Of a stretch of 64,000 nt of DNA, positions 43,260 to 44,788 are shown in pieces. The first letter of the stretch is position 1. Each line of letters starts with the position of its first letter. Source of the DNA: Prochlorococcus sp. AG-355-P07 (GTDB lineage Bacteria > Cyanobacteriota > Cyanobacteriia > PCC-6307 > Cyanobiaceae); the NCBI GenBank assembly GCA_003280575.1, contig QCEN01000002.1, positions 1-64,000 on the forward strand. The letters run 5' to 3'. The position numbers and the translations under genes were made by a program. The notes beneath the pieces are model-generated. The model saw only the letters and a program-made list of their open reading frames with translations. It searched no databases and was not told the DNA's origin.

Positions 43260-43916
43260 CTATTTTGTTTGCATTGATGCAACCTCTTCAGCAAAGTCCA
43301 TCTGATTTTTTTCGATGCCTTCACCCAATGTATATCTGGTAAAGCGTCTTACTTTGATATTTTCCCCAATTTTTGCAGCTGCTTGTTTAACAAGATCCTC
43401 AACTGTTAGAGAACTATCTTTAATGTAAGGTTGTGAAAGCAAAACAAGCTCATTAAGTCTTTTTGCTATTCTACCTTCAACTATTTTTTCTTTAATCTGT
43501 TCTGGTTTCCCTGATAAATCATCCCTACCCATTTCAATCTGCTTTTCTTTTTCCACAACATCTTCGGGTATTTCATCAATTGATACATATTCAACATTTG
43601 GGCATGCTGCTACTTGCATTGAGACATCCTTCAACAGAGATTGGAATATATCACCTCTAGCAACAAAATCAGTTTCACAATTTAACTCAAGTAAAACTCC
43701 GACTCTTGATCCAGTATGTATGTAACTACCGATTGACCCTTCGGCCGCTACTCTTCCCGATTTCTTTTCAGCACTAGCTATTCCTTTCTTTCTTAACCAT
43801 TCCAAAGCCTTATCTAGATTTCCTTCAGTTTCATAAAGGGCTTTTTTGCAGTCCATCATTCCTGCACCAGTTTTGTCTCTAAGATCTTTTACAAGTTTTG
43901 CTGTAATGTTTCCCAT
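43260..43916 (-). CDS. tsf: Translation elongation factor Ts
   Basis: EF-Ts (218 residues) is the nucleotide-exchange factor for EF-Tu. It shows the N-terminal UBA-like part, the classic signature [29 protein letters not shown], and [15 protein letters not shown]. It follows rpsB by 44 bp in the conserved rpsB-tsf order and is probably under control of the rpsB leader. Confidence 0.96.
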
Positions 43917-43960: not shown

Positions 43961-44665
43961 TTAATTTTTTCTTTCGGCATTAGAGCCCTTTCTGCCCTCA
44001 TTTATGGCATCTGCTAGTCTTCCTAAAATAAGTTGCACAGATCTAACGGCATCATCGTTACAAGGAATTGGGACTTCACACAAATCCGGATCGCAATTTG
44101 TATCTAACATTGATACGAGGGAGATATCTAATTTTCTAGCTTCTAATACTGCATTAGATTCTCTTCTCTGATCAACCAATACAACTACATCTGGTAATCT
44201 TCTCATACCCTTAAGTCCACCTAAGTATTTTTGTAATCTTTCAAGTTCTCTCCTTAATACCGCTGCTTCTTTTTTAGGCCTCATTGCTATTGAACCACTA
44301 CTTTCCATTCTTTCTAGATCCTTTAATCTTTCAATCCTAGCTTTCATTGTTGTCCAATTAGTCAACATCCCCCCAAGCCATCTTTGATTTACATATGCAG
44401 CTCCACAGCGTGTAGCTTCCTGAGCTACTACATCTGATGCTTGTTTTTTTGTACCGACAAACAGGAAACGTTTACCACTTTTTGCAGCATTTCTCGTCCA
44501 TTTATACGCATTGTTCATGCACAATGCTGTTTTTACAAGATCAATGATATGAACTCCATTCCTCGCGCAATATATATACTTAGACATCTTAGGATTCCAA
44601 CGTCTAGTTTGATGCCCAAAATGAGCACCAGCTTCCATCATTTCTGATAGTGATACAACAGCCAT
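43961..44665 (-). CDS. rpsB: 30S ribosomal protein S2
   Basis: RpsB (234 residues) is the S2 protein of the small subunit. Signatures are [54 protein letters not shown] and VPIPCNDDA. It begins the rpsB-tsf transcription unit. Its 5' leader carries a pseudoknot-forming element; the only good Shine-Dalgarno-like sequence, GGAGG, is 23 bases upstream of the ATG, which is too far for ordinary initiation unless structure shortens the path. Confidence 0.96.
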
Positions 44666-44676
44666 AATTTAAAAAG

Positions 44677-44740
44677 GTTTCGGGTTAGCCTCCATCTGAC
44701 GGGGAATTAATATTAATAATTCACCCGAAACTGTCAGATG
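44677..44740 (-). promoter_or_regulatory. Structured 5' leader of rpsB: candidate pseudoknot cis-regulator
   Basis: In mRNA sense the order is CATCTGAC (44740-44733), GTTTCGGGT (44731-44723), GTCAGATG (44700-44693), ACCCGAAAC (44685-44677). The first pairs with the third (8 bp) and the second with the fourth (9 bp), all perfect and interleaved, which defines an H-type pseudoknot. Between them GAATTA/TAATTC (44722-44717 with 44709-44704) forms a hairpin that can extend with GGG/CCC and then competes with the 9-bp helix. GGAGG (44693-44689) touches the 8-bp helix. This fits autoregulation by S2, as known for the gammaproteobacterial rpsB leader, but that function is inference. Confidence 0.75.
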
Positions 44741-44759
44741 TGTGGATTTAATTTCAATG

Positions 44760-44788
44760 ATTCTAGCAAGCGATGTGTATTTCTAAAA
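44760..44788 (-). promoter_or_regulatory. Candidate extended -10 promoter of rpsB-tsf
   Basis: Read on the minus strand, TTTTAG (44788-44783) and TAGAAT (44765-44760) are separated by exactly 17 bases, and TGC stands directly before the -10 hexamer, giving an extended -10. Transcription would begin near 44753, about 12 bases before the first arm of the leader structure. The -35 match is weak. Confidence 0.55.

Follow-up and report, generated by a model that had tools for sequence, protein, structure and literature searches.

A conserved pseudoknotted rpsB-tsf leader in Prochlorococcus and its probable role in S2 control

What is the compact RNA structure in front of rpsB-tsf in Prochlorococcus, and what does it do? 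The question arises from a 64,000-nt stretch of Prochlorococcus sp. AG-355-P07 DNA (the window), in which two perfect inverted repeats of 9 bp and 8 bp are interleaved on the minus strand upstream of rpsB, exactly as the first-pass annotation had claimed. Sequence comparison gives good support for a pseudoknotted rpsB leader under selection. The leader is real and conserved, and it is already known: both its family and the occurrence of that family in Cyanobacteria have been described. We consider it probable that it is a cyanobacterial version of the widespread rpsB leader and mediates control by ribosomal protein S2.

Architecture of the leader

The elements of the locus are collected in Table 1. 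Both genes were named by recognition: we take the first to be rpsB, which is supported by the Prochlorococcus relatives and by the comparison with t44 and E. coli, and the second to be tsf, which is supported by the annotated rpsB-tsf order in E. coli. A single base separates the 5' arm of P1 from the 5' arm of the pseudoknot helix, and 11 bases lie between the 3' arm of the pseudoknot and the ATG.

Table 1. Elements of the rpsB-tsf locus in the window
Element	Sequence	Positions	Strand	Remark
Extended -10 promoter-like site	TGCTAGAAT	44760..44768	-	TGnTAnnnT; start predicted at about 44753
Conserved CACA	CACA	44741..44744	-	immediately 5' of P1; mostly kept in cyanobacterial alignments
P1, 5' arm	CATCTGAC	44733..44740	-	8 bp with GTCAGATG
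Pseudoknot helix, 5' arm	GTTTCGGGT	44723..44731	-	9 bp with ACCCGAAAC
GGG within the pseudoknot 5' arm	GGG	44724..44726	-	can pair with CCC, extending P3
P3 hairpin, 5' arm	GAATTA	44717..44722	-	compatible with the pseudoknot
P3 hairpin, 3' arm	TAATTC	44704..44709	-	pairs with GAATTA
CCC	CCC	44701..44703	-	competing partner of the pseudoknot GGG
P1, 3' arm	GTCAGATG	44693..44700	-	8 bp with CATCTGAC
Last G of P1 and loop 3	GGAGGCTA	44686..44693	-	conserved loop; loop 3 is GAGGCTA, 44692-44686
Pseudoknot helix, 3' arm	ACCCGAAAC	44677..44685	-	9 bp with GTTTCGGGT
rpsB, ribosomal protein S2		43961..44665	-	ORF; ATG at 44665
tsf, elongation factor Ts		43260..43916	-	ORF; second gene of the operon

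When the 123-nt leader was dinucleotide-shuffled 20,000 times, interleaved repeats of at least 9 and at least 8 bp arose in 20 of the shuffles; in another 20,000, interleaved repeats of at least 8 bp each arose in 40. The energy of the nested fold was unremarkable (z = -0.97, with 35 of 200 shuffles equally good) in a folding program that does not represent pseudoknots. The evidence for the structure is comparative.

The third hairpin, P3, had been described as using bases of the 9-bp helix and hence as an alternative to the pseudoknot. Its six pairs share no base with that helix; they abut it, and the two can coexist. We therefore rejected the alternative-state reading for the six pairs and kept it only for the GGG/CCC extension, which does compete with the pseudoknot.

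Conservation across the class

We compared 159 cyanobacterial rpsB leaders, comprising the window, 78 of 80 loci of relatives (L052 and L060 were dropped, as their contigs lack the upstream region) and 80 leaders from genomes. A search with S2 gave a match in 237 of 242 genomes and none in the other five; the 80 genome leaders were hand-picked among the matches listed, which are the more similar part of the 237 genomes, and comprise 4 from the same genus, 16 of 17 from the same family and 60 from other families. A further 18 divergent leaders were hand-picked from genomes with a less similar S2. The term "window's family" covers the leaders of the window's own genome and of same-genus and same-family genomes, together with loci titled Prochlorococcus or Synechococcaceae (n = 99); "other families" denotes the remainder of the window's class (n = 60, or 78 with the divergent leaders). 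The 159 leaders were positioned by the sequence anchors GGGTG and AACCC and not by pairing, and these anchors pre-set part of the pseudoknot core; nine leaders that a stricter pattern missed were retained in the final set. Counts over the 159 leaders are not independent, because 83 are near relatives (the HLpro group), and the pairing statistics are to be taken as indications rather than probabilities, because letter shuffles leave relatedness in.

The first-pass annotation had proposed a search of upstream alignments for compensatory changes in both helices. Such changes were found, strongly in P1 and, once the divergent leaders were added, in the pseudoknot. Seven or eight of the eight P1 pairs can form in 159/159 leaders. 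Over 76 distinct stem sets, the paired fraction of P1 cells was 0.977 against 0.811 in shuffles, and 131 cells were changed on both sides against a shuffle mean of 32.4; neither value was reached by any of 1000 shuffles. In a subset of 34 other-family leaders, 98.2% of P1 cells were paired, with two-sided changes at 7 of 8 pairs, and 85% of P3 cells were paired, with two-sided changes at 5 of 6 pairs. The whole structure was 93.1% paired in these 34 leaders, a value that dropped to 28.6-57.2% when the arms were slid by 1-3 columns.

For the pseudoknot helix, all nine standard pairs are present in 99/99 leaders of the window's family, within which they hardly vary. Among the 60 other-family leaders, 8 of 8 pairs form in 35, seven in 24 and five in one. 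Over the 76 stem sets, which lack the divergent leaders, the paired fraction was 0.898 against 0.867 in shuffles (reached by 0/1000), and the two-sided signal was weak (20 cells against 11.4; 1/1000 reached it). With the 18 divergent leaders included, the 24 distinct other-family sequences paired in 171 of 192 cells, and 13 cells were changed on both sides against a shuffle mean of 3.8; 0/2000 shuffles reached either value. The inner seven pairs of the same 24 sequences were paired in 154 of 168 cells, five of them with two-sided changes, and again 0/2000 shuffles reached either count. The four innermost pairs are invariant in the 78 other-family leaders and are thus uninformative either way; the outermost of the eight pairs is unpaired in 27 of the 78. 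In four leaders with divergent pseudoknots (L153, L183, L188 and L189), full pairing of the helix appears by eye to need a bulged base, as in L153, where CCTGGGGT would pair with ACCCaCAGG.

The spacing of the elements differs in constancy. The gap between P1 and the pseudoknot arm is 1 nt in 157 of 159 leaders and 2 nt in the other two, with the arm length set at 9 nt for the window's family and at 8 nt for the other families. The loop from the pseudoknot arm to the 3' arm of P1 spans 16-57 nt among leaders of the window's family and 11-120 nt among the others.

These data bear on the reading that the inverted repeats arose by chance and have no function. The ordinary stability of the nested fold is what such repeats would give; the rarity of the interleaved pair among shuffles speaks against it, as do the conservation of the element in the class and its two-sided changes there. 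On the comparative data we rejected chance, to which we assign a negligible probability.

Relation to known rpsB leaders

We built a covariance model, R1, from the 34 other-family leaders only, with the window's family held out; the mixed alignment A1 did not enter it, since its arms had been displaced where loop lengths shifted by one base. In the window's 1.5-Mb genome, R1 found this leader as its sole significant match (49.9 bits, E 3.4e-12; R1 E-values are rough throughout), and the other matches there (17.6, 16.1 and 11.8 bits) look like chance. It also matched 41/41 further leaders supplied to it (L086-L161 include 42 that did not enter the model, and all but L124 were supplied), 18/18 divergent leaders (the weakest at 15.9 bits, E 0.001) and the rpsB leader of E. 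coli (19.2 bits, with E 0.001 for the 66 kb searched). Searched across the phylum, R1 gave matches in 83 of 194 genomes, all listed match rows being from the window's class. This is an undercount, because 24 candidates were scored per genome and the genome G055 was missed; its leader (L099) matches R1 at 29 bits when supplied directly.

In the opposite direction, the Rfam model RF00127 (t44) scored 27.5 bits on the window leader (E 3e-4 in 161 bases), against 83.5 bits on the leader from E. coli. The Rfam search suggested by the first-pass annotation thus brought up a relative, one that lies under the 44-bit cut-off; the scan of the window returned no match at gathering level, and a match to SNORD12 (17.9 bits, E 0.41 and 0.26) was taken as chance. 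Matches in both directions support homology between the window leader and the rpsB leader of E. coli. By eye, CACA, P1, GGGTG, the GTGGAGGC loop and AACCC occur in the same order in t44, the CACA of the E. coli leader is at the same place as in the window, and the core of the E. coli pseudoknot (GGGGT/ACCCC) differs from the cyanobacterial one (CGGGT/ACCCG) by a two-sided change across phyla. Unlike the t44 model, the window leader has no long inner stem. We regard the family resemblance to t44 as real on these sequence grounds, and t44 as too narrow for annotating the cyanobacterial leader. Under strict filters (E <= 0.001), t44 matched 0/116 cyanobacterial genomes, the window's own included; Rfam-based annotation would therefore miss the leader, which a dedicated cyanobacterial model would mend.

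A structure of this kind has been described. Meyer et al. 2009 (PMC2704228) reported an "rpsB motif" with a pseudoknot and listed Cyanobacteria among its carriers, so that the earlier statement that no cyanobacterial equivalent had been described fails. As in that motif, the window leader lies upstream of rpsB, has a P1 with compensatory changes and a variable P3, has no P2 or a very short one, as given for Cyanobacteria, and joins the junction to the 3' extension of P1 through the pseudoknot (PMC2704228). For groups other than Firmicutes, the text of Meyer et al. 2009 gives five pseudoknot pairs, compared with the nine in 99/99 leaders of the window's family and the seven or eight of eight in 59/60 other-family leaders; this difference rests on their text, and their cyanobacterial alignment rows may show the same pairs (PMC2704228). 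Axmann et al. 2005 (PMC1242208) predicted ribosomal protein leaders in Prochlorococcus and Synechococcus (S10-type, rplJ and L11-type), a likeness in that these too are proposed as autogenous leaders in marine cyanobacteria, and their Table 1, unlike the present locus, does not include rpsB. The main text of Weinberg 2010 (PMC2864571) does not contain "rpsB", and Steglich 2008 (PMC2518516) has no word starting with "rps". Among the literature matches listed, we found no test of S2 control in any cyanobacterium. What the present analysis adds is small: the lineage details (nine pairs, a lost Shine-Dalgarno and GGG/CCC) were not found in the consulted parts of the literature.

Outside the class, we collected 11 rpsB leaders from sister classes of the phylum (L171-L181; 11 of 14 such genomes listed). 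R1 matched one of them (L171, 24.4 bits), and 0/11 had an Rfam match with E allowed up to 1. A CACAC/CACGC...GGCGGAGG pattern can be made out by eye in L172, L173 and L180, and nothing obvious is seen in the remaining seven. The rpsB leader may have been lost or altered in some of these relatives. Among the control genomes, t44 gave matches in E. coli and in Thermotoga maritima, one of them above the cut-off, a hint that the rpsB leader is old and widely distributed.

Proposed function and alternatives

The GGAGG at 44693-44689 is separated from the ATG by 23 nt. This position agrees with the first-pass annotation, which had seen in it the only strong Shine-Dalgarno-like box; the Shine-Dalgarno role itself does not hold up. 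GGAG, AGGA or GAGG is found between the pseudoknot and the ATG in 60/60 other-family leaders and in 0/99 leaders of the window's family, and a looser Shine-Dalgarno pattern follows the pseudoknot in 18/18 divergent leaders. With GGAGG as the sole such box left in the window's family, one could envisage a remote Shine-Dalgarno that the pseudoknot carries close to the ATG. However, loop 3 starts with GAGG not only in 99/99 leaders of the window's family but also in 53/60 other-family leaders, where a proper Shine-Dalgarno follows the pseudoknot; in E. coli, too, the rpsB leader has GTGGAGGC. Moreover, an absent Shine-Dalgarno is common in the window: an SD-like box (GGAG, GAGG or AGGA between -20 and -4 relative to the first ATG) accompanies 2 of 47 ORFs of at least 150 aa, and an rpsB without one is therefore usual here. 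We rejected the distant Shine-Dalgarno, given that GAGG is kept beside a proper one and in E. coli, and regard it as very unlikely. Because the GAGG of loop 3 is kept alongside a separate Shine-Dalgarno elsewhere, GGAGG is best read, from its sequence context, as a structural or recognition element. Several of the 18 divergent leaders have a different loop 3.

In E. coli, S2 acts through the rpsB leader, with the help of S1, to repress translation of its own mRNA, and the operator excludes the ribosome binding site (PMC10931766). In our reading, P1 forms in the 5' leader of the cyanobacterial rpsB-tsf mRNA, with the P3 hairpin inside it. The stretch between P1 and P3 pairs with the 3' extension of P1, giving the pseudoknot, and the conserved GAGG loop links P1 to the pseudoknot helix. 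Free S2, probably together with S1 as in E. coli, would bind the pseudoknot and block translation initiation just downstream of it; rpsB would then be translated only as long as 16S rRNA takes up all the S2, and tsf likewise by coupling. In the other families sampled, the Shine-Dalgarno lies beside the end of the pseudoknot; in the window's family, which has none, initiation would depend on the few unpaired bases ahead of the ATG. S2 autocontrol is the likeliest function, and our best guess because the leader is homologous to that of E. coli rpsB. That homology would extend S2 feedback, for which the experimental reports come from E. coli, to ocean phototrophs. Phototrophs of the Prochlorococcus type are very abundant in the ocean.

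The same conserved leader might instead answer to something other than free S2, serving as a constitutive platform for loading S1 and the 30S subunit or as a stabiliser of the mRNA. Pseudoknots have been named as high-affinity targets of S1 (PMC10931766), and a landing platform would be useful to the family that lacks a Shine-Dalgarno. Nevertheless, the related E. coli leader responds to S2, and the element precedes rpsB in each genome of the class sampled, which fits feedback by the gene's own product; we therefore consider a platform or stabiliser unlikely. Compatible with S2 autocontrol, and a refinement of it rather than a competitor, would be a two-state switch in the window's family, in which S2 chooses between the GGG/CCC extension of P3 and the pseudoknot. 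In ViennaRNA, P1 plus P3 amounts to -11.7 kcal/mol in the window and to -19.2 with the extension, so that freeing the pseudoknot arm would cost 7.5 kcal/mol. The median cost is also 7.5 kcal/mol in the 99 leaders of the window's family, as against 4.1 in the 60 of other families, and the competition exceeds the mean of the leader's own loop shuffles in 93/99 and 19/60, respectively. Likewise, CCC is found in the last 5 nt ahead of the 3' arm of P1 in 92/99 as against 3/60. On the other side, 83 of the 99 leaders form one close group (HLpro), and for the 16 members outside it 15 to 74 per 100 loop shuffles compete equally strongly. In addition, the pseudoknot duplex (-13.0 kcal/mol) is calculated with its loop cost excluded and so cannot be ranked against the extended P3. 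A lineage-specific GGG/CCC switch is possible on this sequence evidence, and we rate it as rather doubtful. Similarly speculative is a broader picture in which the Prochlorococcus family rebuilt an ancient S2 operator, losing the Shine-Dalgarno, extending the pseudoknot to nine pairs and acquiring a two-state GGG/CCC RNA whose balance S2 and S1 would set on an mRNA without a Shine-Dalgarno. S2 autocontrol itself remains the favoured reading, and the leaders of the window's family suggest that an operator can persist after the neighbouring Shine-Dalgarno has been lost.

Transcription of the leader had been attributed to an extended -10 promoter with a spacing of 17. Judged by eye, the hexamer 17 nt upstream of the -10 looks like a poor one. 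The extended -10 is present, and the 60 nt ahead of P1 contain TGnTAnnnT in 99/99 leaders of the window's family, the window included, in a count that uses a loose pattern on mostly near relatives. Its 3' end lies 16-24 nt ahead of P1 in these leaders, and a predicted transcription start about 12-13 nt ahead of P1 in the window is plausible.
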